This document shows positions 642 through 16,457 of a stretch of DNA of 64,000 nucleotides, piece after piece. Positions within the stretch are counted from its first letter, which is position 1. Every line of letters begins with the position of its first letter. This DNA comes from Puniceicoccaceae bacterium 5H. Lineage in GTDB: Bacteria; Verrucomicrobiota; Verrucomicrobiia; Opitutales; Oceanipulchritudinaceae. The notes under the pieces were generated by a model, which worked only from the letters and a program-made list of their open reading frames with translations, ran no database searches and was not told where the DNA came from. The position numbers and the translations under genes were made by a program. The DNA is taken from positions 62,001-126,000 of the forward strand of contig WOUP01000006.1 in assembly GCA_009772895.1 (NCBI GenBank). The letters are read 5' to 3'.

Positions 642-1423
642 GGCTGACCCTCGCTCTTTTCGGGGATCGGCACTGGGACGGGAAAAGACACGTAATGGAC
701 ATCGCCGTTCGACCCGTCGGCCATGCGCACCAATTCGAAGGCGTGCGCAGCCGCCCGCCCCTCCAGAGGCTCGAATTGCCAAGGCCCATTTGCTTGCGGC
801 CGCCCAAGGTAGGCTTCGTCATTGGCGACCGAAGCCGAAAGCGCGAACGCCAAGCCCCAGTAGACCGTGTCAGCCTGAATCCGCGTGCCATCGGAACGGG
901 TGCGAATCTCGTGTGCCACCGTGATGGTTTCGTTGAACCGGGCCACCTCCTCCAGGATCGACAGCACGGTCTGCAGGCGTTCCCCGGCGGTTGCCCTCGT
1001 ATGAGCAGGATCATTGGGCAACTGGCGAAACTGAGCCCGCAGACGCTCCTGCAAGGGTGATGGCAACGCGCTGTAGCGATTTTTCAACTGCAACTCGTAG
1101 CTCGCCAAAGCCTCCACCAGCGCATCGCTCATCTCCTGTTGCTGTGCCTGGGCCTCACGCAATTCCACGCGCTGCTCACCGGAAACGTCTTGAGCCGACT
1201 CGAGGTGGTCAATCTCTGCTCGAACGGCCTCGATCCGCTGCTGGAGCAGGTCGCGAGTCGATTGCAGCATCGCTATATCCTGCTCGGCCTCGACCTTTTC
1301 CTGGGCGATGAGACGCTCGGTCTCCACCCACCGGTCGATCAACTGACGGGTCTGCGACAGTTGATCCGCAGCGGATACGCCGACCACAGCAAACCAGAGC
1401 GCCAGTATCGAAAACGGCTTCAT
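638..1423 (-). CDS. DUF3450 family periplasmic coiled-coil protein of a Ton-motor operon
   Basis: 261 residues, starting MKPFSILALWFAVVGVSAAD, a clear signal peptide. An upstream TTG (1474) would overlap fecR and bury that signal, so the ATG at 1423 was chosen. Residues 20-120 are heptad-like and rich in Gln, Glu and Arg (coiled coil). The second half contains the DUF3450-type segment around PSPLQERLRAQFRQLP and a C-terminal beta-rich part with YWGLAFALSA. DUF3450 proteins accompany ExbB-ExbD-TonB gene sets and are thought to assist a dedicated TonB motor; their exact role is not established. It lies 25 bp downstream of fecR and overlaps the next gene by 4 bp, so fecR, DUF3450 and exbB-like form one operon. 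Confidence 0.75.
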   Translation of the reverse strand: MKPFSILALWFAVVGVSAADQLSQTRQLIDRWVETERLIAQEKVEAEQDIAMLQSTRDLLQQRIEAVRAEIDHLESAQDVSGEQRVELREAQAQQQEMSDALVEALASYELQLKNRYSALPSPLQERLRAQFRQLPNDPAHTRATAGERLQTVLSILEEVARFNETITVAHEIRTRSDGTRIQADTVYWGLAFALSASVANDEAYLGRPQANGPWQFEPLEGRAAAHAFELVRMADGSNGDVHYVSFPVPVPIPEKSEGQP

Positions 1424-2519: not shown

Positions 2520-2553
2520 ACTTCGCTCATCTTACGGTCGGCCATTAGAGCCT

Positions 2554-2592
2554 AAATCTACCAAGCAGCGTGACAATTTTTTCTCTGGTGAC
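2554..2592 (-). promoter_or_regulatory. Shared regulon promoter, site A (fecR operon)
   Basis: Read leftwards, TTGGTAGATTT (2564 to 2554) is preceded by GTCAC at 2574-2570 and another GTCAC at 2592-2588. The 11-mer is identical to that of the receptor promoters, but the spacing to GTCAC is 5 nt instead of 8-9, and the two GTCACs are 18 bp apart instead of 11. It ends 34 bp before the fecR ATG. Confidence 0.65.
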
Positions 2593-2733
2593 AATTGTAT
2601 GAACAAAACTTTTGGAGTTGACCGGCTCAGCGTCCCGACCTCTCCTATCGACATCGGAACGTCACCCCTTCGCGGGCTCTTGCCTGGCTACGTCTGTTCG
2701 AAGCCTCGCCTGCGAAAAGCCCTGAAAACCGGT

Positions 2734-3327
2734 ATGCACGAAGATCCGAGCTCCTCTCCAAAAGCAAACGCGTCGATGTCTGACGATGTGTTGATGGACC
2801 TTTTACGACGGGGCGACGAAGCAGCCCTGCGCCATATTTTCCTCCGCTACTACGAACGTCTCTGCCGGTTTTCCTATACCATCGTCCAGCGCAAGGATCT
2901 GGCAGAGGAAGCGGTTGCAAACGTTTTCCAAACGCTCTGGGCACGCCATCGCATCCTCACGATCCGCAAAAACCTGCAGACGTACCTCTTCATCGCGGTG
3001 AAGAACCAATCGGTGGATCTGGTGCGCTTCTGCCGCCGCGAGCCCGTCTCGGCCATCGACAGTGTCGGGACTCATGAATTGCCTTCGGAAGCACCCAAGC
3101 GGAACTCCAACCAGTATGAAGAGGTCCGCCGCGAAGTCGATACCCTGATACAAGCGCTGCCACCCCAGCGTCGCCTGGTCTTTCGGCTCAATCGCTTTGA
3201 AGGCATGCGCTATCGGCAGATCGCCGAGATTCTCGGCATCTCGGAGCGGACGGTCCAAAACCATATGGTATTGGCGATGAAACAGCTAGCGCCAGAGTTG
3301 GACCGACTGAAGGAGCTGATACGTTAG
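2734..3327 (+). CDS. ECF-type RNA polymerase sigma factor (FecI-like)
   Basis: Region 2 is visible as LLRRGDEAALRHIFLRYYER and VANVFQTLWARH, and region 4 as LPPQRRLVFRLNRFEG followed by a helix-turn-helix YRQIAEILGISERTVQNHM. With the start at 2734 (MHEDPSSSP) the product is 197 residues, normal for ECF factors. An ATG at 2599 with an upstream GGTGA would add 45 residues of no recognisable domain, and ATG 2776 (MSDDVLMD) is also possible. It is divergent from fecR and followed by an STN-domain receptor, the standard cell-surface signalling arrangement. It presumably directs RNA polymerase to a set of promoters; the repeated promoter in this region is the obvious candidate, although this is inference. 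The last eight codons and stop are duplicated at 7078-7104. Confidence 0.9.
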   Translation: MHEDPSSSPKANASMSDDVLMDLLRRGDEAALRHIFLRYYERLCRFSYTIVQRKDLAEEAVANVFQTLWARHRILTIRKNLQTYLFIAVKNQSVDLVRFCRREPVSAIDSVGTHELPSEAPKRNSNQYEEVRREVDTLIQALPPQRRLVFRLNRFEGMRYRQIAEILGISERTVQNHMVLAMKQLAPELDRLKELIR

Positions 3328-4546
3328 CCACGAAACACTGTCACCAAAACGTCACGCAAAGACATTGGTAGATTTTGGGATGATCGTTCGTCCCATCGGC
3401 GGAACCACTGGCAGTGGTCGTTCTGTCGCTGTGCATTGACGGGCTGGAGATAGCCTGACGTGGAGCGGTCGCCACGCCAGCGGTCTATGCTTAACCCAAT
3501 CCGACAGATTCTTGTGAGACCGATCTCTTCTTCTTCCGCGTTCATCCGCTCTCTCGTCCGGCGCCAGGGCTGGCTCGCCCAGTTGGCCCGGGACGGTGCG
3601 CTACTCTGCGCACTGGGCCTGACCGCGTCCCTCGCGGCCGAGACCTTTGACTACGGGCACGACCAGCCGCTGATGCAAACCCAGGTCACGCTGCCCGAGA
3701 GCGAGGACGCGCTAACCCTGCGCCAGTTCATCGCCGCCTGCGAAGAGCAGACCGACTTTGCCTTCGCCTACCGCACGGACAACCTGCCGCTGGACGCCGA
3801 GCTGAACCTGCCGCAAACCGAGAGCCCGCTCTCGCTCGCGCAAGCCTTCTGGGCCATCTCCAGCCGCAAGGGCATCGTCTTCGAGCGCGTGAATCGGCAG
3901 ATCGCCGTGCGCTTCTTTGCTGAAGGCGACACGCTGCGCCCCCTGGAAGACGATGCGCCCCGCAATGCGCAGGAAGGCCGTCGCTCCCAGCCCGATCTCG
4001 AGACCTTCGAACTGGAAGCCTTTGCAGTCGAAGGTGAGTACAACGAAAAGATGGAGACGCTGGAACTGCGCATGCAGGATGTGAAGTTCCAGAACATGCT
4101 CTCGGCCGACGACATGTCGCGCTATGCCGCAGGCGACATGAGCGAGGCCATCGGCCGCATCGCCGGCGTCAATGTCGCCGAAGGGCGCTTCGCCGTCATC
4201 CGCGGCCTCTCCGAGCGCTACAGCGCCACCCTCGTCAACGGCATTCCCGTGCCCAGCGCCGACCCCGAAAAGCAGGGCGTGCACCTCGACCTCTTTTCCA
4301 CCGACATCGTCAGCCGCCTCGAAGTCTCCAAAACCTTCTCTCCCGACGGGCCGGGCAACGCCGCCGGCGGCTTCATCAACATCGTCACGACCCGCATCCC
4401 CAACGAGCCTTTCGCCAACATCAGCTTCGGCGCCAAGTTCAACGACCGCGCCCAGCGCGACTACGTGACCTACACCAACGCCGGCCGCAGCGACTCCTGG
4501 GCCATGGGCACCAACGACCGCATCACCCAGGTCTTCGGCTACGATG
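3301..4546 (+). repeat. Long direct repeat, 5' copy 1 (sigma 3' end, promoter, receptor STN and plug)
   Basis: Near-identical to 7078-8324. It covers the last codons of the sigma gene, the promoter, the leader and about 360 receptor codons, then similarity falls abruptly after the GGCTACGATG sequence. Confidence 0.9.
3340..3375 (+). promoter_or_regulatory. Shared regulon promoter, site B (receptor 1)
   Basis: GTCAC at 3340-3344 and 3351-3355 form an 11-bp direct repeat, followed after 9 nt by TTGGTAGATTT at 3365-3375. TGGTAGATT can be read as an extended -10. The receptor start lies 85 bp downstream. Confidence 0.75.
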
Positions 4547-6801
4547 CTAATGGTAACTACAAGTTCGTAAGCACGGGTGACTTCAGCCCGGAACTGCCGT
4601 GGGTAAAAGATGGGGCTCGTTACACCCTGCCGGAGGGTATCGACATGGTGGCCCAGCACGAAAGCCCGCCCCAGGGGCTCAGCTTCACCGCGAGTGGCGG
4701 CGGTGGCTCCGAACTGCTCGGGCGGCGCTTTCGCATCTTGACCACCGTCAGCTACGACAGCTCTTACAAAACGGCAGACGGCTTTTATGAGGATCGATGG
4801 CCAACCAACATAACGCTCATCAACGAAGGCAGTGGTTATACCATGGTGAGTGACCTTTGGTATGGCACCATGACCTCCCACGGACCGCTCTACGATTACA
4901 CCCAATCGGTCGCGACCGTAAGTCTGACGGGACTGGCGGCTCTGCAGTACGATCTCGATGCCAAAGGCAACCACACGCTGACCTTCAACGCCTTCATGTC
5001 CAAAGTGGGGGAAGACACCGTTCTGAAGTTCGATGATGGCGAATTTGAATATGAGCGTGAAGGTGAAGTCTATTTCTCGAGTGAGCGACCTTGGGGAGGA
5101 TTACTGAAAACGCGCGTAAGCGATGATTCGAGTGCGGTCGATGACTACTATTACTGGGACCTGCTTTTTTACGAGGAACGCAGCCTCTACAGCCTGCAAC
5201 TACTGGGGGATCACTTCTTTGATATCCCGGGAGAGACGCCGCTCAAGGTCAACTGGGCCGCAAGCCACAACACCACCTCAACCGAAGAACCAGACGCGCG
5301 CTCGGCCGAGTATGTCTATCTTACTTCCCAAGGCGTCTACGATTCTTCAACCAACCGAGACTTGGCCGGCAACAACTACCGCAGTTGGCGCTTCATTGAC
5401 GAAGCTCAGGATTTCGCCCGTTTGGATTTCGAGTACGAATCGATCTTCGGCCGTAACTTCAGCGCGATCTTCTCTTCCGGCGCTTCTTACGACGACTCCG
5501 ATCGCGATGTCCTGCAAGGGCGTACCACCTTTCGCCTAGCTTCAACTCAGACCACCGCACAGGAACTGTTCAGCGCCGACGATGCGCGCTACTATTCGTC
5601 TGGAGGCGCCCGCGACGTGACGTCCGAAGCCCGCCGCGAACTTAAGGCGGGTTATCTCTCCGGTGTCTTTACCTTTTTCGACCGCATTGATGTCATCGCA
5701 GGGGCGCGCGCCGAGAGCCTTGAGATGAGCAGCTTTACCGAGTATCCGTCCGACCGCAAAACGAAGAGTGTGGAATCCCTCATTGGCGGCGAAACGGATC
5801 TCAGCCTGACTAATATTTTCGGTTTTGGCCCTGGAGAAGATGGCTCCTTCATCAATGGCACGCTTGATCGCGTGTTTCTGTTGCCTTCGGTCGGGCTGGC
5901 CTATCGGCCTACCGACAACCTGAAGCTGCGCCTCAACTATACCGAAACGGTTGCCCGACCCTCTTTCCGCGAATACACCGCATACTTAGCCTTTCTACCG
6001 GATTCGCTAAGTCAGACACTCGGCAACCCGCAACTCGAAACCTCCGATGTGCGCAGTACCGACTTTCGCACCGAGTATCTGTGGGGCGATGAAGGCAATT
6101 TGGCCGCCATCAGCCTCTTTTACAAAGAAGTCGACCACCCCATTGAGCGGGTCAAGGTGCCGAGCACCTCGGTCGGCGAGTATCACACCTGGGTCAATAA
6201 TCCTAATACCGCCTACCTCACAGGGCTCGAACTAGAGTTTCGCCAATACCTCACCTTCATACCCCACTGGCTGGGCGGCGACTTTTGGAATGACTTCAGC
6301 ATTGGCGGCAACTACACCTACATCGACGCCGTCGTGGCAGTATCAGACGCACTCATCGAAAAGCAAACCAGGCCTGGAGGCTCTTGGGATCCGCGCCCAA
6401 ATTTACCTCGCCCAGACGACATCATCTTTGAGGGCCCGCGCACGGAACGCCGTCTCTATAACCAGCCCCAGTGGATTGTCAACGCCGACCTGACTTATGA
6501 CAACGCAGATATGGGTTCGCGCCTGACCCTAGCCTACTACGCCATCAGCGAGATCCTGACCTCTGGAGGCATTGCGTCGTCGAGCGTGACGCATGATGAG
6601 TATAGCGACAACTTCTATAGCATCGACTTTACTGCACGTCAGCAACTCTTCGAAGGCTGCCATCTCAGCTTCAGCGTCAAAAACCTAACCGACAGCATCC
6701 GCGGCGTGCAGTACGACCCGTATCTGACAACGCAGGATTACTACCAGCGTCGCTACCGCGTCGGCCGCGACTACTCGATTTCGCTCAGCTACAGCTTTTA
6801 G
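3460..6801 (+). CDS. TonB-dependent outer-membrane receptor 1 with STN signalling domain
   Basis: 1113 residues from a GTG at 3460, which has GGAG 11 nt upstream; an ATG at 3487 is the alternative, but its equivalent in receptor 2 is GTG. A signal peptide ends near residue 61 (ALLCALGLTASLAAET). The STN domain spans about 70-153 (LTLRQFIAACEEQTDFAFAY), the part that talks to FecR. A TonB-box-like stretch is near 183-192. The plug (about 195-330) contains IRGLSERYSATLVNGIPVPS and GGFINIVTTRIP. The beta-barrel ends RDYSISLSYSF with the usual terminal Phe. Ligand unknown. The sigma and fecR genes next to it predict that it both imports and senses its substrate. Barrel loops differ strongly from receptor 2 while STN, plug and the last strand are almost identical. 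Confidence 0.95.
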   Translation: MERSPRQRSMLNPIRQILVRPISSSSAFIRSLVRRQGWLAQLARDGALLCALGLTASLAAETFDYGHDQPLMQTQVTLPESEDALTLRQFIAACEEQTDFAFAYRTDNLPLDAELNLPQTESPLSLAQAFWAISSRKGIVFERVNRQIAVRFFAEGDTLRPLEDDAPRNAQEGRRSQPDLETFELEAFAVEGEYNEKMETLELRMQDVKFQNMLSADDMSRYAAGDMSEAIGRIAGVNVAEGRFAVIRGLSERYSATLVNGIPVPSADPEKQGVHLDLFSTDIVSRLEVSKTFSPDGPGNAAGGFINIVTTRIPNEPFANISFGAKFNDRAQRDYVTYTNAGRSDSWAMGTNDRITQVFGYDANGNYKFVSTGDFSPELPWVKDGARYTLPEGIDMVAQHESPPQGLSFTASGGGGSELLGRRFRILTTVSYDSSYKTADGFYEDRWPTNITLINEGSGYTMVSDLWYGTMTSHGPLYDYTQSVATVSLTGLAALQYDLDAKGNHTLTFNAFMSKVGEDTVLKFDDGEFEYEREGEVYFSSERPWGGLLKTRVSDDSSAVDDYYYWDLLFYEERSLYSLQLLGDHFFDIPGETPLKVNWAASHNTTSTEEPDARSAEYVYLTSQGVYDSSTNRDLAGNNYRSWRFIDEAQDFARLDFEYESIFGRNFSAIFSSGASYDDSDRDVLQGRTTFRLASTQTTAQELFSADDARYYSSGGARDVTSEARRELKAGYLSGVFTFFDRIDVIAGARAESLEMSSFTEYPSDRKTKSVESLIGGETDLSLTNIFGFGPGEDGSFINGTLDRVFLLPSVGLAYRPTDNLKLRLNYTETVARPSFREYTAYLAFLPDSLSQTLGNPQLETSDVRSTDFRTEYLWGDEGNLAAISLFYKEVDHPIERVKVPSTSVGEYHTWVNNPNTAYLTGLELEFRQYLTFIPHWLGGDFWNDFSIGGNYTYIDAVVAVSDALIEKQTRPGGSWDPRPNLPRPDDIIFEGPRTERRLYNQPQWIVNADLTYDNADMGSRLTLAYYAISEILTSGGIASSSVTHDEYSDNFYSIDFTARQQLFEGCHLSFSVKNLTDSIRGVQYDPYLTTQDYYQRRYRVGRDYSISLSYSF

Positions 6802-6982
6802 GCCTCTGACACGGCCGAAGGAAACCTGCAAACATCCGCTATGCCATGGCCCGAAAGGTTTTCGCCGCCTTTCGGGCTTCTTTATTTCTGGAACGGAGCA
6901 TGGGCTTCACGGCAAACCGTGATACGTAGATCCCGATATCGAACCTGAGGCCTTCAACTCGCCTTGCGTTAAGAAGTGCGAC
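6748..6982 (+). repeat. Direct repeat, 3' copy 1 (receptor C-terminus, terminator, downstream spacer)
   Basis: Matches 10505-10738 almost base for base apart from a short variable stretch near 6926-6960. It marks the right end of the duplicated unit. Confidence 0.9.
6850..6888 (+). terminator. Rho-independent terminator of receptor 1
   Basis: The stem CCCGAAAGG / CCTTTCGGG (6850-6858 and 6868-6876) is followed by CTTCTTTATTTC. Confidence 0.85.
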
Positions 6983-7076
6983 TGGTGTGCAGCCCGCCGG
7001 CGTCGACCACAAAGGGATTTTCGACGCTCCGGGACGGACGAAGGTGAAGCTGGCATCCGTGTGCGGCGAAATTGCT
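6983..7076 (-). pseudogene. Remnant of a second fecR gene
   Basis: Two non-adjacent pieces of fecR are fused here. 6983-7017 matches fecR 1925-1959, and about 7016-7076 matches fecR 2252-2311. The second piece still encodes FRRTRMPASPSSVPERRK on the minus strand, against FRRTRMPASPPSVPQRRK in the intact protein. A short open frame over this stretch (6907-7101, minus) is explained by this residue and is not a gene. Confidence 0.88.
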
Positions 7077-7077
7077 G

Positions 7078-7104
7078 GAGCGGCTCAAGGAGCTGATGCA
7101 TTAG
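7078..7104 (+). pseudogene. Remnant of the 3' end of a second sigma-factor gene
   Basis: It encodes ERLKELMH followed by TAG, against DRLKELIR and TAG at the end of the intact sigma gene (3301-3327). It is immediately followed by the duplicated receptor promoter. Confidence 0.85.
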
Positions 7105-7115
7105 CCGCAGCAGGT

Positions 7116-7151
7116 GTCACCAAAACGTCACGCAACGAGATTGGTAGATTT
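7116..7151 (+). promoter_or_regulatory. Shared regulon promoter, site C (receptor 2)
   Basis: GTCAC at 7116-7120 and 7127-7131 (11 bp apart), 9 nt, then TTGGTAGATTT at 7141-7151. It is a duplicate of site B and lies 84 bp before the receptor start. Confidence 0.75.
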
Positions 7152-7234
7152 GGGGGCGATCGTTCGTCCATCGGCGGAACCACTGGCAGTGGTCGTTCTG
7201 TCGCTGTGCATTGACGGGCTGGAGATAGCCTGAC

Positions 7235-10200
7235 GTGGAGCGGTCGCCACGCCAGCGGTCTGTGCTGAACCCAATCCGACAGATACTCGTGAGACCGATC
7301 TCTTCTTCTTCTTCCGCGTTCATCCGCTCTCTCGTCCGGCGCCAGGGCTGGCTCGCCCAGTTGGCCCGGGGCGGTGCGCTACTCTGCGCACTGAGTCTGA
7401 CCGCGTCCCTCGCTGCCGAGACCTTTGACTACGGGCACGACCAGCCGCTGATGCAAACCCAGGTCACGCTGCCCGAGAGCGAGAACGCGCTGACTCTGCG
7501 CCAGTTCATCGCCGCCTGCGAGCAGCAGACCGACTTTTCCTTCGCCTACCGCACGGACAACCTGCCGCTGGACGCCGCACTGAGCCTGCCGCAGAGCGAG
7601 AGCCCGCTCTCGCTCGCGCAAGCCTTCTGGGCCATTTCCAGCCGCAAGAGCATCGTCTTCGAGCGCGTGAATCGGCAGATCGCCGTGCGCTTCTTTGCCG
7701 AAGGCGACACGCTGCGCCCCTTGAGAGACGATGCCCCCCGCAATGCGCAGGAAGGCCGTCGCTCCCAGCCCGATCTCGAGACCTTCGAGTTGGAAGCCTT
7801 TGCCGTCGAGGGCGAGTACAACGAAAAGATGGAGACGCTGGAGCTGCGCATGCAGGATGTGAAGTTCCAGAACATGCTCTCGGCCGACGACATGTCGCGT
7901 TACGCCGCAGGCGACATGAGCGAGGCCATCGGCCGTATCGCCGGCGTCAATGTCGCCGAAGGGCGCTTCGCCGTCATCCGCGGCCTCTCCGAGCGCTACA
8001 GCGCCACCCTCGTCAACGGCATCCCCGTGCCCAGCGCCGACCCCGAAAAGCAGGGCGTGCACCTCGACCTCTTTTCCACCGACATCGTCAGCCGCCTCGA
8101 AGTCTCCAAGACCTTCTCTCCCGACGGGCCGGGCAACGCCGCCGGCGGCTTCATCAACATCGTCACGACCCGCATCCCCAACGAGCCCTTCGCGGACATC
8201 AGCTTCGGCACCAAGTTCAACGACCGCGCCCAGCGCGACTACGTGACTTACACCAACGCCGGCCGCAGCGACTCCTGGGCCATGGGCACCAACGACCGCA
8301 TCACCCAGGTCTTCGGCTACGATGGGACTGGCGTCTACCGTTACGCGCACGTTTCCGATTATAGCCCTGAGCGCCCTTGGGCTCAGGACGGTGCGAACTA
8401 CACCCTGCCGGAGGGGGTGGATTTGGTTGGGCAACATGAGAGCCCACCTCTCGGCCTGGGTTTTACCGCGAGCGCCGGGGGCGGCTTCGGGCTTTTCGAC
8501 CGTCAGTTTCGCATCCTCACTACCGTGGCCTATGACAGCTCCTACAAGACGGAAGACGGGTCATATCAGAAGCGCTGGACCTCAAGCTATACCTTCCTCA
8601 ATCCGTTTTTGACGGTCCCTTCGATAGCCTACGGCCTACTGCCGTCCCACGATCCGCAGTTCAACTATATTCATTCGCAGGCTGAAATCGATATTACGGC
8701 CCTTGCCGCGCTTCAATTCGACCTGGATCCAAGAGGCAATCACCAAATCACGCTCACCGGCTTTCACTCCAGAGTGGGAGAAGATACCGTCTTCAAATTT
8801 GAAGATGGGCGCTTTGAATACGAACCGACGCCATCCTACTTCGAGGGAGCCTATAGCCTTGAGGGGCCACAAAGGCCCGTTGGGAGCGGCCTTTTGAAAT
8901 CACGTCTGGCCAATGTCGAAGGAGCGATAGACGACCTGTATTACCGCGACATCATCTATTATGAGGAACGCACCCTCAGCAGCCTCCAATTACTAGGTCG
9001 GCACTATTTCAACAATGTAGGTGCCACGCCCCTTAAAGCCGAGTGGGCGCTAAGCCACAACACCACCTCGACGGAAGAACCGGATGCACGGTATCTCGAA
9101 TACTATTATGTCCCCTCCGAGGGCGTTTTCGGCTCAGACACTTCGCGCGACGAAGGCAGCAGCAACTATCGAAGTTGGCGCTTCATCGACGAGGAACAGG
9201 ACTTTGCGCGCACCGATCTCGAATACGAATTCATTTTCAACACCATTTCCACTTTGGATTTGAGCGGAGGCGCCTCTTACGATGAATCAACCCGTGACGT
9301 GTTGCAGGGGCGTAGTCTATTCGTCGTAAGCGGACGAGACGAAGACGCCGAAGAGCTTTTCAGTGCCAATGGGTCCGCCACCGCGTTTATCCCCAAGACC
9401 AGTAATCGCGACGTAACCGCCCATTCGCTTCGCGAAATCAAGGCGGCATATGTCTCGGGAGTCTTCACGCTCTTCGACAAGGTCGATCTAATCGCAGGTG
9501 CTCGGGCGGAAAGCCTCGAGATGACGAGTCAAGCCATCTACATTGATCGCAAGCTCGCCAGCATCACCTCGCTCTTCACCCATGAATCGCTCGGGATCGG
9601 CCCCGTTTTCGACCTGGGCCCGGGCGACGATGGCACCTACTGGGCAGGCACGCTGGACCGGGTCTTTCTGCTGCCTTCGCTCGGTGCGGCCTACCGCCCG
9701 ATCGAAGGACTTTCCGTCCGCCTCAACTACGGAGAGACCGTCGCGCGCCCCTCCTTTCGGGAGTATACCGCCTATATGGCCTTCACACCGGACTCCCTGG
9801 AGCAGAACCTCGGCAATCCGCAGTTGGAGACCTCCGATGTCCGCAGTACCGACTTTCGGACCGAGTACGTATGGGGCGCCCAAGGCGACCTCGCTGCGAT
9901 GAGCCTTTTCTATAAGGAAGTAGACCGCCCCATCGAAAAGGTTCAGATGGATAGCACCAATTATGGTGAATACTATGTTTGGGTAAATAACGACCACACC
10001 GCTTACCTCAACGGCCTCGAGCTGGAGTTTCGCAAGCACCTGGGGTTCCTCGGAGACTTTTGGTCAGACTTCAGCATCGGCGGCAATTACACCTATATCG
10101 ATGCAGTGGTGAAAGAGGTTTCGCCGATCTACGAGCGCGAAGTCGGCAACTGGGATCCCTACTTTGTAGACATCCCCGAAGATGCTCTTTTTACCGGCAG

Positions 10201-10558
10201 CAGCCAGGAGCGCCGTCTGTTCGATCAACCGGAATGGATCGTCAATACCGACCTGACATACGAACACGAGGAGTCCGGCACACGCCTCACCATTGCCTAC
10301 TATGCCATCAGCGAGATTCTCGACGCGAGTGCCGCCGCCTCCCCCACCATGGACCTCTACCTCAACGATTACTACCGGGTCGACTTCACCGCCCGCCAAC
10401 GCCTTCTCGACGGACTTCAACTCAGCCTGAGTATCAAGAATCTCACCGACAGCCTGCGCAGCCTGCAATACGATCCATACGCTACGTCCAAAGACATCTA
10501 CCAACGTCGCTACCGCGTCGGCCGCGACTACTCGATTTCGCTCAGCTACAGCTTTTAG
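7235..10558 (+). CDS. TonB-dependent outer-membrane receptor 2 with STN signalling domain
   Basis: 1107 residues, paralog of receptor 1, starting at the GTG equivalent to 3460. Signal peptide to about residue 62, STN at about 71-154 (LTLRQFIAACEQQTDFSFAY), plug at about 196-330, then a 22-strand-type barrel ending RDYSISLSYSF. The first 370 or so residues and the final strand are nearly identical to receptor 1. The rest of the barrel, especially the loops, is diverged, including a stretch near FEYEPTPSYFEGAYS where the paralog has a different length. This suggests a different ligand but the same signalling partner, because only one intact fecR/sigma pair remains. It has its own promoter and terminator. 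Ligand unknown. Confidence 0.95.
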   Translation: MERSPRQRSVLNPIRQILVRPISSSSSAFIRSLVRRQGWLAQLARGGALLCALSLTASLAAETFDYGHDQPLMQTQVTLPESENALTLRQFIAACEQQTDFSFAYRTDNLPLDAALSLPQSESPLSLAQAFWAISSRKSIVFERVNRQIAVRFFAEGDTLRPLRDDAPRNAQEGRRSQPDLETFELEAFAVEGEYNEKMETLELRMQDVKFQNMLSADDMSRYAAGDMSEAIGRIAGVNVAEGRFAVIRGLSERYSATLVNGIPVPSADPEKQGVHLDLFSTDIVSRLEVSKTFSPDGPGNAAGGFINIVTTRIPNEPFADISFGTKFNDRAQRDYVTYTNAGRSDSWAMGTNDRITQVFGYDGTGVYRYAHVSDYSPERPWAQDGANYTLPEGVDLVGQHESPPLGLGFTASAGGGFGLFDRQFRILTTVAYDSSYKTEDGSYQKRWTSSYTFLNPFLTVPSIAYGLLPSHDPQFNYIHSQAEIDITALAALQFDLDPRGNHQITLTGFHSRVGEDTVFKFEDGRFEYEPTPSYFEGAYSLEGPQRPVGSGLLKSRLANVEGAIDDLYYRDIIYYEERTLSSLQLLGRHYFNNVGATPLKAEWALSHNTTSTEEPDARYLEYYYVPSEGVFGSDTSRDEGSSNYRSWRFIDEEQDFARTDLEYEFIFNTISTLDLSGGASYDESTRDVLQGRSLFVVSGRDEDAEELFSANGSATAFIPKTSNRDVTAHSLREIKAAYVSGVFTLFDKVDLIAGARAESLEMTSQAIYIDRKLASITSLFTHESLGIGPVFDLGPGDDGTYWAGTLDRVFLLPSLGAAYRPIEGLSVRLNYGETVARPSFREYTAYMAFTPDSLEQNLGNPQLETSDVRSTDFRTEYVWGAQGDLAAMSLFYKEVDRPIEKVQMDSTNYGEYYVWVNNDHTAYLNGLELEFRKHLGFLGDFWSDFSIGGNYTYIDAVVKEVSPIYEREVGNWDPYFVDIPEDALFTGSSQERRLFDQPEWIVNTDLTYEHEESGTRLTIAYYAISEILDASAAASPTMDLYLNDYYRVDFTARQRLLDGLQLSLSIKNLTDSLRSLQYDPYATSKDIYQRRYRVGRDYSISLSYSF

Positions 10559-10738
10559 GCCTCTGACACGGCCGAAGGAAACCTGTAAACATCCGCTATG
10601 CTATGGCCCGAAAGGTTTTGCCGCCTTTCGGGCTTCTTTATTTCTGGAACGGAGCATGGGCTTCACGGCAAACCGTGATACGTAGAGATCGACGCCGGGC
10701 TTGGGGCCTTCAATCCGCCTTGCGTTAAGAAGTGCGAC
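10505..10738 (+). repeat. Direct repeat, 3' copy 2
   Basis: Partner of 6748-6982, covering the receptor 2 C-terminus, its terminator and spacer. Similarity ends at GAAGTGCGAC, just where the fecR remnant begins after copy 1. Confidence 0.9.
10607..10644 (+). terminator. Rho-independent terminator of receptor 2
   Basis: The stem CCCGAAAGG / CCTTTCGGG (10607-10615 and 10624-10632) is followed by CTTCTTTATTTC. It is a copy of the receptor 1 terminator. Confidence 0.85.
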
Positions 10739-10833
10739 AATTGTCACAAAACGCCCCGCCAAGATGATGCAAGCGCCTCATCTTAACCAATATATTTCAC
10801 AAAGCCGGTGCGACACATGAGTGTATCATAACC

Positions 10834-10857
10834 GTCACTAAAACAGTTGGTAGATTT
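10834..10857 (+). promoter_or_regulatory. Shared regulon promoter, site D (beta-helix-like secreted protein)
   Basis: GTCAC at 10834-10838, 8 nt, then TTGGTAGATTT at 10847-10857. The upstream half-repeat is weak here (GTATC at 10823). Start codon 112 bp downstream. A lone GTCAC at 10743 is too far upstream to belong to it. The rest of the 10645-10968 gap shows no gene. Confidence 0.7.
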
Positions 10858-10968
10858 CGGGTTGGTTTTTCGTCCTTACCCCGAAGGACATTCCACCCAC
10901 AGTGGCGGCCTTCGCACTCTAACCCGACTCAACCCCTGCCGCTGATGGCGGCACTACGCTACCACATC

Positions 10969-12543
10969 ATGAAAAAGCAATCTCTCCTCCTGGGCTTTAC
11001 GGCCCTTTCGATGGCCGTCTCCTCGGCTTTCGGCCTCACGGTCGTTTCCTCCGACATCACTTCCGACACCACTTGGACGACGACCGGCGCTCCCTACATC
11101 CTCGAAGAGCCCATCTTCGTGCAAGACGGCGCCACGCTGACGATCCAGCCCGGCGTAGTCGTTCGCGGCCAACCGCGCAACGGCACCGCCGTCGCGGGCT
11201 CCCTGCTCGTCGCCCGGACCGGTCGCATCGAAGCTGAAGGCACCTCCACCAATCCGATCATCTTCACCACCGCTGCGGTCGACGTGAACAATGACGGCAA
11301 CGCCGACGGCAGCGTCAATGCCTACACGCGCTTCGACGACAGCATCCACGACGAAAACGACTTCCTCGACGAAGATCCGGCCAACACCCCGCTGGCCCCC
11401 CTCAACACCGCGGGCGAGCCCAACCTGCAACTCTGGGGCGGCGTCGTGGTGCTCGGCAACGCACCGACCAACCTCGGGATCGGCACGGGCCCCGGCGGTG
11501 ATGCCGAAGCCGGCATCGGCAACATCGAAGGCATCGATCCGCAGACCAACGAGACCAAGTTCGGTGGTTTCAATCCGAGCGACGACTCCGGTATCCTGCG
11601 CTACATCTCCATCCGCCACGGCGGTGACGTGATCGAAGATGCCAACGAAATCAACGGCCTGACCCTCGGCGGCGTCGGCTCCGGCACCACGGTCGACCAC
11701 ATCGAAGTCTACTGCAACTGGGACGACGGCTTCGAATTCTTCGGCGGCACCGTCAATGTGGATCACCTCGCCGCCATCTTTGTGGGCGACGACCACTTCG
11801 ACTTCGACGAAGGCTACACCGGTCAAGCGCAGTTCCTCTTTGTCGTCATGCCCTACTTCACTGCCGCGAGCGGTGATTATGGCTCCAGCAGCGGTGACGA
11901 AGCCGGCGAATGGGATGGCGACGACTGGGACCTGCGTAGCAACGACGTGACCCTGAACGCCGACGGCCGTCCGGTTCCGTTCTCCTACCCCTTCGTGTAT
12001 AACATGACCGTGGTGGGCTCGGATCTGCCCTCGACCTCCGCCGCGACCCACAGCAACAGCGACCTGGGCCGCATCCTGATGCGCAACGGCTTCAACGGCT
12101 GGGTGGCGAACTCCATCATCGTCAACACCGGTTCGACCAACCCGCTGTCCGTCAGCAATGCCGACGGTGCCCCGGGCTACAACGCCACGGACAATGCCGC
12201 GGCTGGCACGCTCGGCCTCGCCGGTGTGACCTTCGGCGATGTGCCCTCCGGCTTCCCGGCCGCCAGCTCGGCCGAAGAAACGGCGCTGGCCAACGGCGGT
12301 GGAAACCTCGTCAACCCGGCCACCTTCAGCCTGCTCGGCGAAGACCAGAACTTCAACGGTTCGGCTACCCTGAATCCGCGCCCGACCGGCATCCCGACCA
12401 ACTACACCAATCCGGCCCCCTTCATCGGTGGCGGCTTCATCGAAACGGTGGAGTATCGCGGTGCGTTCGACAGCAACACGAGCACCCCGCTCTGGACCAC
12501 TGGCTGGACGGCGGCCAACGCGCGCGGCTTCCTCGCCAACTAG
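10969..12543 (+). CDS. Secreted beta-helix-like protein of the TonB-receptor-associated family
   Basis: 524 residues from MKKQSLLLGFTALSMAVSSA (signal peptide); an in-frame ATG at 10945 would mask it. After residue 30 the protein has beta-solenoid-like rungs such as DGATLTIQPGVVVRG and LQLWGGVVVLGNAP, then Asp/Gly-rich stretches. It ends with the characteristic YRGAFDSN ... WTTGWTAA motif. Proteins of this type, with no agreed name or function, are often found beside TonB receptors in Bacteroidota and Proteobacteria (recalled, not searched). It could be a surface or periplasmic ligand-binding partner of the receptors. It has its own shared-type promoter and a strong terminator, so it is monocistronic. 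No PEP-CTERM tail and no lipobox are visible. Confidence 0.75.
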   Translation: MKKQSLLLGFTALSMAVSSAFGLTVVSSDITSDTTWTTTGAPYILEEPIFVQDGATLTIQPGVVVRGQPRNGTAVAGSLLVARTGRIEAEGTSTNPIIFTTAAVDVNNDGNADGSVNAYTRFDDSIHDENDFLDEDPANTPLAPLNTAGEPNLQLWGGVVVLGNAPTNLGIGTGPGGDAEAGIGNIEGIDPQTNETKFGGFNPSDDSGILRYISIRHGGDVIEDANEINGLTLGGVGSGTTVDHIEVYCNWDDGFEFFGGTVNVDHLAAIFVGDDHFDFDEGYTGQAQFLFVVMPYFTAASGDYGSSSGDEAGEWDGDDWDLRSNDVTLNADGRPVPFSYPFVYNMTVVGSDLPSTSAATHSNSDLGRILMRNGFNGWVANSIIVNTGSTNPLSVSNADGAPGYNATDNAAAGTLGLAGVTFGDVPSGFPAASSAEETALANGGGNLVNPATFSLLGEDQNFNGSATLNPRPTGIPTNYTNPAPFIGGGFIETVEYRGAFDSNTSTPLWTTGWTAANARGFLAN

Positions 12544-12583
12544 CCTCAGCTTAAGGTCAGCTCACAGATCGACTCACAAGCTA

Positions 12584-12617
12584 GCGGGCGGCCGAATCAG
12601 GCCGCCCGCCTCTTTTT
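12584..12617 (+). terminator. Rho-independent terminator
   Basis: A perfect 10-bp stem GCGGGCGGCC / GGCCGCCCGC (12584-12593 and 12600-12609) is followed by CTCTTTTT. Confidence 0.92.
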
Positions 12618-12634
12618 GGCCTCGGCCCTCCGTT

Positions 12635-12669
12635 TTCACAAACCTGTCACAAAGCGACTTGGTAGATTT
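12635..12669 (+). promoter_or_regulatory. Shared regulon promoter, site E (secreted paralog 1)
   Basis: TTCAC at 12635 and GTCAC at 12646 (11 bp apart), 8 nt, then TTGGTAGATTT at 12659-12669. The repeat CACAAACCTGTCACAAA is the best Pho-box-like copy in the set. Confidence 0.75.
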
Positions 12670-12781
12670 CTCGCCGCTACACGTCCTTCAGTATCCAGCG
12701 GCAGTCTGTCGGTCGCTGGTCGGACAATCGTTTTCCGATCTGTCTGCTCTCCAGATTCAACAACCTTACAGCCTTCATCTC

Positions 12782-13654
12782 ATGCACCACGCAAAACGCT
12801 TCAGCGCTCTTATCGCCCTGGCAGGAGCTTCCGCCTCCGCCCTCTCGGGCCAGATCCTTGTCGCCGGCTGGGATTTCTCCCAATACCGCGCCGGCTATTC
12901 AGCCGTCGGCACAGGCTATACGGGTGTAGACAGCCTCTGGGCCAATTTCAGCGGCCTCGACACCCTCGGTAATGCCAACGGATTCTCCGGCCCCAACGAC
13001 TACCACTTCGGCACGTTTTACTACGGCGGCCAATATGGCTCCAGCCAGATGATCGATGCCGCCTCCCCCTTTACAACGTATTGGGCCAACTCCGGCAACC
13101 TGACATCCAACGACGGCGCCGCAACCAATCCCTACTACGGGAGCACCTTCAACGGCACCCTCAAAAACCAATATCTTACCGATGAAGGCCAGGAAACGAT
13201 CAATCCCTACAGCGTTCAGTTTGTTTCGGATTTTAGCGGCGAAAGCTTCGTCTTCGAGGCGAATGTCGGCGACGGCTACATCGGCAACGGCTGGGGCTTG
13301 AGCTACGCAGGCAAGATGGCCTCCGGCGGCACGACTACGCTCTCCTGGGAATATTCGCTCGATGGCACCAACTACATGTCCACCGGCATTACCCACACCT
13401 TTACGACCACCGACTCTGCCTTCGATCTCAGCCTCGCCGACCTTGTGGCGCTCGACGGTGCGGACGAAGTCTATTTCCGCGGCACCCTGGGTACGATTTC
13501 ATCCACGCTGGGCGAAATCCCGCTGCTCGACAACGTCGCCATCACGGCGGGCGAGGTCGCATCCGTCGCCGTGCCGGAACCCTCCACCTACGCCGCGCTA
13601 GGCGGCCTGTTCGCGGGTGCACTCGTATTCTGGCGGCGCCGTCGTCAGGCCTAA
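12782..13654 (+). CDS. Secreted PEP-CTERM protein, paralog 1 of three
   Basis: 290 residues starting MHHAKRFSALIALAGASA, a signal peptide; earlier in-frame starts lie inside the preceding gene and terminator. The core (about 25-260) starts LVAGWDFSQYRAGYSAVGTG and contains GPNDYHFGTFYYGGQYGSSQ. It is shared with the two following genes and matches no domain I recognise. The C-terminus is a textbook PEP-CTERM sorting signal: VPEPSTYAALGG, a hydrophobic helix and the basic end WRRRRQA. That signal sends proteins to exosortase for processing and surface attachment; no exosortase is in the window. Driven by promoter site E. The shared promoter suggests it works with the receptors, perhaps as a surface ligand-binding protein (inference). 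Confidence 0.88.
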   Translation: MHHAKRFSALIALAGASASALSGQILVAGWDFSQYRAGYSAVGTGYTGVDSLWANFSGLDTLGNANGFSGPNDYHFGTFYYGGQYGSSQMIDAASPFTTYWANSGNLTSNDGAATNPYYGSTFNGTLKNQYLTDEGQETINPYSVQFVSDFSGESFVFEANVGDGYIGNGWGLSYAGKMASGGTTTLSWEYSLDGTNYMSTGITHTFTTTDSAFDLSLADLVALDGADEVYFRGTLGTISSTLGEIPLLDNVAITAGEVASVAVPEPSTYAALGGLFAGALVFWRRRRQA

Positions 13655-13855
13655 GGCGGTCCTGGCTTCATCCATTTTGGCAACGCCAGCGTCGACGCCT
13701 CATTCAAGAATCGCAGATAGGAACCGTCAGCCTCCTGCCGCGATTCACGCAAGACAGCCCGGCTGTAGAGAGAGCACCGGGAAAGCAGCAAGTCAGTCGC
13801 AGGCGTTGCCGCGATATAGGCTACAGAGCGATAGAGCATCGCTGTTCGATAAGCA

Positions 13856-13884
13856 AAGGGGCGCGGAACCTTCCGCGCCCCTTT
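13856..13884 (+). terminator. Rho-independent terminator of paralog 1
   Basis: A long stem AAGGGGCGCGGAA / TTCCGCGCCCCTTT (13856-13868 and 13871-13884) with a CC loop. The U-tract is short. It lies 200 bp after the stop; the 13655-13855 stretch between holds only a doubtful 62-codon open frame on the minus strand. Confidence 0.7.
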
Positions 13885-13914
13885 ATGTCCTCCATAATGG
13901 CCCGCTCGAACCCT

Positions 13915-13950
13915 TTAACACACTTGTAACCAAATCAGATTAGTAGGTTT
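13915..13950 (+). promoter_or_regulatory. Shared regulon promoter, site F (secreted paralog 2), divergent copy
   Basis: TTAAC at 13915 and GTAAC at 13926 (11 bp apart), 9 nt, then TTAGTAGGTTT at 13940-13950, which has two changes from the usual 11-mer. Start codon 98 bp downstream. Confidence 0.6.
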
Positions 13951-14047
13951 CACCACGATCGGCGACCATCGCGTATGACATTCCCGTTTGTTTCCAAACG
14001 GGAGCGCACACTTACGCTACAGGCTTCTCTTTTCCTCCAACGCACTC

Positions 14048-15124
14048 ATGAAAAAATTGCAATTCCTCGGCACACTGGCTGCACTCGCATCCTTTTCAGT
14101 CTCGCTCCACGCGCAGGAAACCCTGATCGCGGGTTGGGATTTTTCTCAATACCGGGCTGGCTATTCCGCCGTCGGCACAGACTATATCGGGGTCAATACG
14201 CTCTGGGCCAATTTCAGCGGCCTCGACACCCTCGGCAATGCCGACGGCTTCTCCGGCCCCAACGACTACCACTTTGGCACCTTCTATTACGACGGCCAAT
14301 ATGGCTCCAGCCAGATGATCGATGCCGCCTCGCCCTATACAACCTATTGGGCCAACTCCGGCAACCTGGCATCCAACGACGGCGCTGCAACCAATCCCTA
14401 CTACGGCAGCACCTTTAACGGCACCCTCAAAAATCAGTATCTGACGACGGAAGGCCAGGAAACCATCAACCCCTACAGCGTCCAGTTTGTTGCCGAGTTG
14501 AGCGGCGAAAGCTTCGTCTTTGAAGCCAACCTGGGCGAAAATGCTACGGAAACGGCCACCGGCTGGACTTTTAGCTATGCGGGCAAGATGGCATCCGGCG
14601 GTTCTACCACCATCTCCTGGGCTTATTCGACCGATGGCAGTAGCTACACCGACACCGGTGTCACCCATACCTTTACGACCACGGATACCCGCTACGCCTT
14701 GTCGGCGGAGGATTTAAGCGAGCTCGACGGTGCTTCGCAAATCTACATCCGCGGCACCTTGGGCACCATCGTCGCCGAGCCCCTCGGCTATATCCCGCTG
14801 ATCGACAACGTCGCGATCCGGGCCACCGTGGGCGGCAGTATGGCGGCTGATCCCTTTAATGGCACGGAAGAAGGCGAAGACGGCTGGTATTACTCCGATT
14901 GGTTCCAATGGTATTGGCCCCAACCGGACGACAGCAATTGGTATTACAGCGATTGGATGGGCTGGGTCTACCCCGAAGTGAGCGAAGACGAAGCCGGTTT
15001 CTGGCTCTGGGCCGAGGATACGGCAAACAGCACCTGGACCTGGTTCTATACTGAATCGGCTTACTACCCCTGGATTTACAACACCGGCTCCAGCAGCTGG
15101 GTTTGGGGGCAACCCCAAGCGTAA
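14048..15124 (+). CDS. Secreted protein, paralog 2 of three, with W/Y-rich C-terminal module
   Basis: 358 residues starting MKKLQFLGTLAALASFSVSL (signal peptide, cleavage probably after HAQ). The core (about 25-265) is very close to paralog 1, including LIAGWDFSQYRAGYSAVGTD and FNGTLKNQYLTTEGQETINP. In place of a PEP-CTERM tail, residues about 270-358 form a module rich in Trp, Tyr, Asp and Ser, with repeats such as GWYYSDWFQWYWP, WYYSDWMGWVYP and WTWFYTESAYYPWIYN. Similar aromatic C-terminal repeats occur in other Verrucomicrobiota secreted proteins (recalled). A role in cell-surface or polysaccharide attachment is inference. Own promoter and terminator. Confidence 0.85.
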   Translation: MKKLQFLGTLAALASFSVSLHAQETLIAGWDFSQYRAGYSAVGTDYIGVNTLWANFSGLDTLGNADGFSGPNDYHFGTFYYDGQYGSSQMIDAASPYTTYWANSGNLASNDGAATNPYYGSTFNGTLKNQYLTTEGQETINPYSVQFVAELSGESFVFEANLGENATETATGWTFSYAGKMASGGSTTISWAYSTDGSSYTDTGVTHTFTTTDTRYALSAEDLSELDGASQIYIRGTLGTIVAEPLGYIPLIDNVAIRATVGGSMAADPFNGTEEGEDGWYYSDWFQWYWPQPDDSNWYYSDWMGWVYPEVSEDEAGFWLWAEDTANSTWTWFYTESAYYPWIYNTGSSSWVWGQPQA

Positions 15125-15158
15125 GAGAATCGAACCACCGACCAACAGTCCTGGAAGT

Positions 15159-15187
15159 CGCCCGATTTGCCATCGGGCGGCTTTTTT
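15159..15187 (+). terminator. Rho-independent terminator of paralog 2
   Basis: The stem CGCCCGAT / ATCGGGCG (15159-15166 and 15172-15179) is followed by GCTTTTTTG. Confidence 0.9.
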
Positions 15188-15263
15188 GTGGTGCCGGAAT
15201 AAAAACCGAGGTGAACACACGTAGACACAAGGGCATTCCCACCCATTCCAAACGCCCCATTGT

Positions 15264-15298
15264 TTAACCTGATCGTGACAGGTTTGATTGGTAGATTT
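15264..15298 (+). promoter_or_regulatory. Shared regulon promoter, site G (secreted paralog 3)
   Basis: TTAAC at 15264 and GTGAC at 15275 (11 bp apart), 8 nt, then an exact TTGGTAGATTT at 15288-15298. Start codon 95 bp downstream. Confidence 0.7.
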
Positions 15299-15392
15299 CC
15301 CCACCAGTGGCGACCTTCGAGTGGGTCATCGCTTCACCCGAAGCGGGATCCAAACCTCGCAACAAACCTCTCTTACCTTGAAGGCATCACTC

Positions 15393-16457
15393 ATGAAAAC
15401 ACTGCAGTTCTTCGGCGCACTTGCTGCCCTCGTATCTATTTCTGCTGCTCTCCACGCTCAGGACAACCTGATCGCTGGCTGGGACTTTTCTCCGTACCGC
15501 GCCGGTTATTCTGCGGTCGGCAACGATTATACCGGGGTCGATACGCTCTGGGCCAATTTCAGCGGCATCGACACGCTCGGCACGACCAACGGCTTCTGCG
15601 GGCCGAACGACTACCACTTCGGCACCTTTTACTACAATGGCCAGTATGGCTCCAGCCAGATGATCGATACCGCCTCGCCCTTTGCGGTTTTTTGGGCGGC
15701 TACTGGCGATCTCACCTCCAACGACGAGGCCGCGGCCAACCCGTATTACGAAGGAGGCACCTTCAACAGCACGGCCAAACGATCTTTGCTGACGTCGGAG
15801 GGCCAAGCGACCGTCAATGCCTACAGCGTCCAGTTTGTTGCTGAATTGAGCGGCCAGAGCTTTGTCTTCGCAGCCAATCTGGGTGAGGACGCCGCCGAAA
15901 TCGGCAACGGCTGGACCTTCAGCTACGCCGGCAAAATGCTGGCTGGAGGTTCCACGACCATTTCCTGGTCCTATTCGACCGACGGCAGCAGCTACACCGA
16001 TATGGGCATCACCCATACCCTCACTACCGTCGATACCCGCTATGAACTGACCGCCGACGATCTCGGCGAGCTCGACGGAGCCTCGGAGGTCTACATTCGC
16101 GGTACGCTAGGCACCATCTCCACCCAGCTGGGCTACATCCCGCTGCTCGACAACGTCGCCATTCGCGCGACGGTGGAAGCCGCCCCGACCGGGGACCTTT
16201 TCGGCGGCGAACCCTACGGCGATCTCGGCTGGTATTACTCCGAGTGGTTCAAGTGGTACTGGCCGCTGCCGGGCGTCGACAATGCCTACTTCAGCCCGAA
16301 GATGGGCTGGATCTACGCCAAAGCAGACGAGGACAGCGACGGCGTCTGGATCTGGGCCCACGACACGGGCCTCAAATGGACCTGGTTCTACACCGAACCG
16401 GACCTCTATCCCTTGGTTTACAACACGCGGACACAACGCTGGGAACGGGTGCGCTAG
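15393..16457 (+). CDS. Secreted protein, paralog 3 of three, with W/Y-rich C-terminal module
   Basis: 354 residues starting MKTLQFFGALAALVSISAAL (signal peptide ending near HAQ). It shares the core with paralogs 1 and 2 (LIAGWDFSPYRAGYSAVGND) but is the most diverged: an extra residue in NPYYEGGTFNSTAKR and a Cys in GFCGPNDYHF that the others lack. The tail (about 270-354) is the aromatic module GWYYSEWFKWYWP, MGWIYAK, VWIWAHD and WTWFYTEPDLYP, here ending QRWERVR. Promoter site G upstream and a GC-rich terminator downstream make it another single-gene cassette. Function unknown. Confidence 0.85.
   Translation: MKTLQFFGALAALVSISAALHAQDNLIAGWDFSPYRAGYSAVGNDYTGVDTLWANFSGIDTLGTTNGFCGPNDYHFGTFYYNGQYGSSQMIDTASPFAVFWAATGDLTSNDEAAANPYYEGGTFNSTAKRSLLTSEGQATVNAYSVQFVAELSGQSFVFAANLGEDAAEIGNGWTFSYAGKMLAGGSTTISWSYSTDGSSYTDMGITHTLTTVDTRYELTADDLGELDGASEVYIRGTLGTISTQLGYIPLLDNVAIRATVEAAPTGDLFGGEPYGDLGWYYSEWFKWYWPLPGVDNAYFSPKMGWIYAKADEDSDGVWIWAHDTGLKWTWFYTEPDLYPLVYNTRTQRWERVR

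Follow-up and report, generated by a model that had tools for sequence, protein, structure and literature searches.

We analyzed a 64,000-nt stretch of the Puniceicoccaceae bacterium 5H genome (contig WOUP01000006.1, positions 62,001 to 126,000; hereafter the window, whose numbering we use unless a contig is named), in which seven copies of one motif, TTGGTAGATTT, one of them imperfect, precede fecR, two TonB-dependent receptor genes (R1 and R2), a gene for a secreted beta-helix-like protein and the genes for three secreted paralogs (P1, P2 and P3). Judging from the sequence, we consider it rather probable that the seven sites are dual-input promoters, at which a FecI-type extracytoplasmic function (ECF) sigma factor would read the core and a PhoB-like regulator would bind upstream, the two together acting as an AND gate. 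In this proposal, the FecI-type sigma factor (gene at 2734-3327) would recognize TTGGTAGAT-N14/15-CGWCC as its -35 and -10, and FecR and the signaling-like domain of the receptors would control that sigma factor, such that the core fires on ligand. Just upstream, TKTNRC-N6-GTMAC with its 11-bp period would be the operator for a regulator of the OmpR family, PhoB being the likeliest, and this protein would assist the sigma factor at a -35 lacking the usual AA. The output would consist of both receptors, the secreted ElpS-like protein, the three secreted paralogs (one of them PEP-CTERM), FecR and a dedicated Ton motor, and negative feedback would be expected because fecR, rather than the sigma gene, lies inside the regulon. 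As to signal and substrate, we infer that the system probably scavenges a phosphorus-containing compound under phosphate starvation. The proposal would supply the complete, testable grammar of the promoters of a verrucomicrobial FecI-type system, linked to phosphorus scavenging rather than iron. We found no such promoters in Verrucomicrobiota in the literature searched (titles and the starts of abstracts, with most subscription journals outside that search), and to our knowledge help from a response regulator to an ECF sigma factor is experimentally known only from sigma-VreI.

An earlier note on this DNA had counted six exact copies of the motif plus one that differs at two positions, and all seven lie where it placed them: exact copies at 2554 (- strand) and at 3365, 7141, 10847, 12659 and 15288 (+ strand), and the two-mismatch near-copy at 13940 (+ strand), whose layout is that of the other sites. 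Random occurrence through the genome, which the note had named as evidence against a local regulon, is not what we found, since the whole genome (G000, 4.10 Mb, 40 contigs) holds seven exact copies, six of them within this 12.7 kb, and the reversed control pattern has none; with at most one mismatch allowed, the copies number 27 versus 11 for the control. Seven copies in 4.10 Mb also led us to reject the idea that TTGGTAGATTT is a repeat scattered over the genome. The seventh exact copy (C1:246936) is flanked by genes that, by reading rather than by family search, look like those of methylmalonyl-CoA mutase and epimerase; neither a GTNAC 13/14 nt upstream nor a CGWC at the proper distance is in place there, so it is probably a chance match, and we rejected it as a regulon member. 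Start codons follow the motif after 94-112 nt at six genes and after 34 nt at fecR. The claim that a GTCAC-type element ends 8-9 nt before the motif (5 nt at fecR) held for the spacing at all seven sites, with letters better written GTNAC (GTCAC at R1, R2, the beta-helix gene, P1 and fecR; GTAAC at P2; GTGAC at P3). The DNA upstream of R1 and R2 aligns as nearly identical from the operator onward, by which the two are a recent duplication that included the promoter, and their sites are therefore not independent; across the 20 remaining window-site pairs, ungapped identity of the flanks was 20-34%, and these flanks are unrelated. Just before receptor 2, at 6980-7110, we noticed short pieces that resemble fecR (antisense) and the sigma gene's 3' end, which would fit a joint duplication of fecR, sigma and receptor in which the first two later decayed.

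To assign the core elements, we anchored 13 sites (seven from the window, six from the sister species) on the 9-mer TTGGTAGAT and looked at every offset for 4-mers in which no more than one letter was twofold. CGWC occurred 14 or 15 nt 3' of TTGGTAGAT in 13/13 sites, as compared with 5/13 in the best of 60 shuffles, and CGWC was extended by a fifth letter, C, in 11/13. Because of this constant downstream partner, TTGGTAGAT is the likelier -35 and CGWCC the likelier -10, and the pair reads best as an ECF promoter. Two blocks at near-fixed spacing before several genes, the pattern by which ECF-type promoters are recognized, were thus present at 13/13 sites as well as in the variants described below; spacers of 15-17 nt have been used for ECF02 and ECF11 promoters, a figure that depends on how the blocks are cut (PMC10880074). 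A two-block search for TTGGTAGA-N15/16-CGWC gave eight matches in G000, six of them in this locus (control 1), and eight in the sister species G001, five of them in the corresponding locus (control 0); four matches were found in G036, a genome of another family in the same order (control 0), with none seen before the genes of its system, as far as these were inspected. In the window, the putative fecR/Ton-operon promoter occupies 2536-2564 (- strand), with TTGGTAGAT at 2556-2564 as the -35, CGACC at 2536-2540 as the -10 and equal spacing in the sister species. The remaining candidate cores are all on the + strand: receptor 1 at 3365-3393 (-35 at 3365-3373, -10 CGTCC at 3389-3393), receptor 2 at 7141-7169 (a duplicate of the receptor 1 core), the ElpS-like gene at 10847-10875, P1 at 12659-12686, P2 at 13940-13967 (TTAGTAGGT with CGACC) and P3 at 15288-15315.

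Further upstream, GTMA begins 13/14 nt 5' of the motif in 11/13 sites (12 counting GTGAC), the exception being fecR of the window, and at the 12 in-register sites GTMAC is the downstream half of a direct repeat, TKTN(A/G)C-N6-GTMAC, which scored 37 at period 11 and 19.5 at the next period; 0/2000 shuffles reached 37. An 11-bp period is typical for operators of the OmpR/PhoB family (for PhoB, PMC4971064), and the architecture of a Pho box (two 7-bp direct repeats, a 4-bp linker and an 11-bp period) is the one that these sites have. On the + strand, predicted operators lie at 3338-3355 (receptor 1, CTGTCAC-N4-ACGTCAC), 7114-7131 (receptor 2), 10821-10838 (the ElpS-like beta-helix gene), 12633-12650 (P1), 13913-13930 (P2) and 15262-15279 (P3, with GTGAC); that of fecR (- strand, 2588-2605; position weight matrix score 12.96) is ~14-15 bp further upstream than elsewhere, with an extra GTCAC at 2570-2574. 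No strong operator or core promoter was found before the sigma gene in three species (the G036 sigma gene has a 10.2 match), nor does any TTGGTAGATTT copy in the window point at it. Autoregulation, which the earlier note had proposed, therefore survives in part: the anti-sigma gene fecR and the Ton-motor operon stand behind one site, and the sigma gene itself is without one. Likewise, the idea of one regulator for all sites holds insofar as there is one local regulon, kept in the sister species; a second regulator is implied, since the direct repeat that contains GTCAC also occurs without the ECF core in relatives.

Genome-wide, the operator pattern outnumbered its reversed control in G000 (16 vs. 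3) and in G001 (19 vs. 3). The 16 strand matches in G000 fall at 15 places, four of them in this locus; others precede a phosphoesterase gene of the second FecI/FecR system described below, a TonB-receptor gene with a beta-propeller phytase gene (PF02333, 7.5e-65) downstream, a kinase-like gene behind the phytase (identity by reading), a second beta-helix gene and a gene read as encoding a TonB-like protein, and at the remaining six places the frames read gave no link of this sort. The sister species has receptor, phytase and kinase orthologs in equal order, with operators before receptor and kinase, the latter letter-identical to its counterpart, and further operators before the alkaline phosphatase gene and the sister's second sigma gene. 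Because operators precede phosphorus genes, and because of the gene context of homologs of the beta-helix protein, PhoB is our first candidate for the protein that would bind them. We also observed that the kinase-like protein of the phytase cluster (G000 C2:426471-434253, L219; same order in sister L280) carries leucine-rich-looking repeats, that three GTAAC repeats at 11-bp spacing precede the TonB-like gene (G000 C15:66221-66260, L149), and that a similar repeat cluster lies near 29773 of sister locus L150.

The arrangement is conserved. The sister G001 locus contains divergent fecR and sigma genes, one receptor, the beta-helix gene, three secreted paralogs and the Ton-motor genes, and six of its six units carry TTGGTAGA[TA], or once ATGGTAGAT, at the corresponding position; across three orthologous pairs, motif identity was 0.89-1.0 vs. 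0.19-0.32 for the flanks. In G036, seven hand-chosen intergenic stretches of the locus yielded a variant, CTAGTAAGT-N15-TGTCTC, before exbB genes, a second beta-helix gene and fecR. The genus has, in addition, a second FecI/FecR system (G000 C13:255044-271692, L069 and L220; sister L067 and L221), which in either species lies ~15 kb away from the gene of a FecI-like sigma factor, among alkaline phosphatase and phosphoesterase genes. Its G000 version shows ATAGTAGGT-N15-TGTCC before fecR and GGGGTAGAT-N15-TGTCC before a phosphoesterase gene, and the sister version GTAGTAGCT-N15-TGTCT and GTGATAGAT-N15-TGTCG (all four spacers by eye). As the spacing stays constant while the letters differ by system (window, G036 and second system), the differences look like sigma-type specificity. 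The other FecR-like genes, on C1 and C37, had no motif at the promoter position, with one 9-mer copy inside the C1 gene. A single-protein FecR query against 55 genomes exceeded 150 bits just in G000, G001, G036 and the second systems; a FecR profile of G000, G001 and G036, which contains its own three best matches, gave one further match above 200 bits in 372 genomes, in G312. The G312 locus, where the receptor gene lies behind fecR, belongs to another type, and we rejected it as the same system.

We then compared loci that resemble this one without FecI. The beta-helix gene was present in 62/372 genomes of the order (E 1e-30), and a first set was formed from 18 beta-helix loci, namely the best matches minus the FecI-linked places of G000, G001 and G036 and minus G126, each locus being 14-20 kb long; neither a sigma factor nor FecR was matched in the fetched DNA of 18/18. 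E. coli-type Pho scoring of relatives' loci gave 3 upstream matches among the 40 stretches listed and was set aside; a matrix from our own sites was needed. We built it from 11 window and sister operators and ranked the best match up to 300 bp upstream among 300-bp segments, the first-set loci having been inspected by eye before the count. The operator before the ElpS-like gene was in the top 5% at 16/18 first-set loci (L139 and L145 fail), and in 14 of the 16 it lay 85-126 nt upstream of the start codon. In a second set it was in the top 5% at 10/22 scored loci (L276 not scorable; L252 and L253 omitted as repeats of G026 and G188): five of eight Opitutales-type loci were positive (L258, L259, L260, L262 and L266, of which L259 and L260 are near-identical) and three negative (L261, L264 and L267, with L264 probably the same record as L145), and five of the other 14 were positive, with L271-L275 clearly negative.

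What follows the operator in these relatives is a different core. A TATAAT-like hexamer lies ~32 nt after GTMAC, with a mean match of 3.89/6 and at least 4 matches in 13/19 promoters, whereas the means of 500 shuffles did not exceed 3.37 (the 19 being 16 first-set promoters plus L258, L262 and L265, chosen before the count, without L139, L145 or the rest of the second set). At the FecI-type promoters, CGWCC starts 31-33 nt after GTMAC (8/9 + 9 + 14/15). With the operator-to--10 distance equal and the core different, it looks as though an ECF core replaced a sigma70 core under a single activator. On a broader scale, we regard it as a serious possibility, just short of probable, that the operator of a phosphate regulator was kept at fixed -10 distance across the order while the core passed from sigma70 to a FecI-type ECF factor and a signaling domain took the place of the receptor's N-terminal domain. 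A starvation regulon would in this way have become an AND gate of starvation with substrate sensing, as parallel changes arose at as many as seven promoters and in a second family with other letters. Relatives with the operator and a sigma70-like core make such a sigma exchange under a fixed activator testable.

The receptors appear to have changed in parallel with the core promoter between FecI-linked and FecI-less clusters. We aligned the N-termini of R1, R2 and the sister, G036 and second-system receptors into a domain profile, which was not found in 17/17 receptors of other clusters (best E 0.74; L143, with a fragmented receptor, was left out), many of which start with a carboxypeptidase-regulatory-type-looking domain. 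A structural model of the N-terminal domain (pLDDT 87.5, pTM 0.82) matched secretin N0 domains, the signaling domains of PupB and PupA, FpvA and a Bacteroidetes anti-sigma factor. VIA gave Z 8.2 to a Parabacteroides anti-sigma factor (root-mean-square deviation 2.2, 71 residues aligned), 7.0 to PupA (2.9, 82) and 6.4 to FecA (3.0, 78), with secretin and phage proteins at like Z. On the model, the receptor N-terminus is likely a signaling domain.

Four other explanations were weighed against the dual-input promoter. The earlier note had read GTCAC as the -35 and TTGGTAGATTT as the -10 of a single ECF promoter under one regulator, and both elements are indeed real and close together, GTCAC-like -35 elements being, according to the note, known for some ECF groups; the two are unlikely to make a -35/-10 pair, because only 11-12 nt separate GTMAC from GTAGAT, which is too short, and that reading would moreover leave the CGWC of 13/13 sites without a role and does not account for GTMAC being part of an 11-bp repeat found without TTGGTAGAT in relatives, so that we give it hardly any weight. 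Its further suggestion that the ECF sigma factor encoded mid-cluster is the first-candidate regulator was supported. Alternatively, TGG-TAGATT could be an extended -10 of sigma70, with a response regulator acting on the repeat alone and FecI/FecR acting elsewhere: TGGTAGATT resembles an extended -10 (TGnTAnnnT), and related clusters do pair the repeat with a sigma70-like -10. Their -10, though, lies ~32 nt after GTMAC rather than ~12, the 11 fixed letters and CGWC together are more than an extended -10 calls for, and the FecI-linked G036 cluster has other letters at equal spacing, all of which makes this very improbable.

Two further alternatives keep the tripartite promoter and change its players. 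An OmpR-family regulator other than PhoB, with a signal other than phosphate, is somewhat unlikely. In its favor, the operators fit the E. coli Pho-box consensus only partially (mean 10.7/16), no strong operator was found at pst (best 11.2 in a 16 kb piece with a pstS-like gene), which weakens the name PhoB, and the -10 distance of 31-33 nt is unlike an E. coli pho box, which replaces the -35 (PMC4971064). Set against this, the consensus scores are well above those of shuffles (5.5, sd 1.7), operators stand in front of genes for alkaline phosphatase, phosphoesterases and phytase-linked receptors, and ElpS and such genes are described as phosphate-starvation- or PhoB-responsive in Caulobacter (PMC2996285 and PMC11208175). 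Finally, the second FecI-like sigma factor (C13), or both sigma factors, might read the sites, in which case the regulon would not belong to the neighboring gene; C13 has the best TIGR02985 score (158.6 bits vs. 131.1 for the window sigma), and its own system has GGGGTAGAT-N15-TGTCC. This is improbable, given that the letters differ in both species (TTGG/CGWC vs. GGGG or GTGA/TGTC) and that in G036 the adjacent sigma gene and the variant promoter go together.

The dual-input reading itself has points that weigh against it, among them the partial consensus fit and the lack of a strong pst operator just given, and the presence of a second FecI-like sigma factor with a similar promoter, owing to which our sigma assignment relies on adjacency. 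The fecR operator is displaced relative to the other sites, and in G036 the operator is in register at 1/3 sites (by eye). Outside G000 and G001, the operator pattern showed little or no excess over its reversed control (10 vs. 9 in G003, 8 vs. 12 in G005, 8 vs. 11 in G006 and 6 vs. 5 in G036), and the sigma70-like core of relatives concerns their beta-helix (ElpS-like) promoter only. On the receptor side, Pfam had no STN domain in the N-terminus at E 10, a sequence search of solved structures with this N-terminus returned chance matches only, and Foldseek E-values were weak (best 0.034, to a secretin N0 domain, with PupB at rank 3). The beta-helix protein may be ElpS-like, a link made by gene order rather than by direct comparison.

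Compared with known systems, the cluster in the window reads as sigma-VreI-like logic in another phylum. In Pseudomonas aeruginosa, the pho box lies just 5' of the -35 of sigma-VreI promoters, both repeats are needed and PhoB is required for sigma binding; these promoters have a -35 without the AA motif, and recruitment by PhoB has been proposed (PMC4971064). Features probably shared with the PUMA3 system (sigma-VreI/VreR plus PhoB) are FecI/FecR-type surface signaling under phosphate starvation, a pho-box-like pair of direct repeats just 5' of the -35, and a -35 without AA. PUMA3 differs in that vreAIR is one PhoB-controlled operon with a small signaling-only receptor and a link to virulence (PMC4971064), whereas in the window, in Opitutales, no operator stands before the sigma gene, fecR itself would be among the targets, and the targets are transport and secreted-protein genes. 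E. coli FecI/FecR/FecA combines an ECF sigma factor, FecR and a TonB receptor with an N-terminal signaling domain, with the receptor gene as sigma target and a sigma gene that is not autoregulated (PMC9249621); the cluster resembles it, with a signaling-like receptor domain, a receptor gene that would be a sigma target and a sigma gene without a site. E. coli Fec, unlike it, involves Fur and iron citrate (PMC9249621), and the window differs in having fecR and Ton-motor genes behind a site, divergent sigma and fecR genes and a Pho-type operator upstream. In Caulobacter crescentus, the secreted ElpS, which is induced by phosphate starvation, adjoins a TonB receptor in the gene order cc0170-cc0171-gsp, which is also that of the window protein's homologs in Sphingomonas and Indioceanicola; that module has type II secretion system genes in contrast to the Ton-motor operon and PEP-CTERM partners of the window, and no FecI/FecR is described in the portion of its account at hand (PMC2996285). 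A PEP-CTERM gene under an alternative sigma factor is also described in Aquincola, there with RpoN and floc formation (PMC9850573).

The genes themselves are arranged as follows. The fecR gene (1449-2519, - strand; PF04773 1.4e-16, PF16344 5.9e-14), encoding an anti-sigma/regulator, is divergent from the ECF sigma gene (2734-3327, + strand), whose start codon is uncertain, the frame being open from 2599, and which has no site before it. The FecI-like sigma factor has PF04542 and PF08281 (regions 2 and 4) and TIGR02985 at ~131 bits (130.9-131.1; cut-off 126.4), and its adjoining FecR-domain regulator is kept in G001 and G036. The fecR gene begins a same-strand run, fecR-DUF3450-ExbB-ExbB-ExbD-ExbD-TonB-TPR, that continues past the window start and is kept in the sister species; DUF3450 is at 638-1423 (- strand; PF11932 5e-22), and Ton-motor genes other than fecR and DUF3450 were identified by reading, with sister conservation. 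Left of the window, after the Ton-motor genes, L033 3522-9369 contains what looks like a two-partner-secretion transporter gene, with an open frame of great length adjoining it (by reading). On the + strand, receptor 1 (3487-6801) has Plug and barrel domains and the signaling-like N-terminal domain, and receptor 2 (7262-10558) is its paralog. The secreted beta-helix-like protein (10969-12543, + strand) has no Pfam match and is ElpS-like by the gene order of homologs: those on Sphingomonas and Indioceanicola plasmids (38% and 34% identity over 46% of the window protein) precede a TonB receptor and then type II secretion (gsp) genes, and one in Pseudoalteromonas follows ExbB-ExbB-ExbD-TonB-TPR and precedes a TonB receptor. 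Of the secreted paralogs, all on the + strand, P1 (12782-13654) is PEP-CTERM (PF07589 / TIGR02595), and P2 (14048-15124) and P3 (15393-16457), neither with a Pfam match, have a Trp/Tyr-rich C-terminus replacing PEP-CTERM. These tails are encoded at 14870-15124 and 16200-16457, and the three paralogs of the sister species are split alike (by eye).

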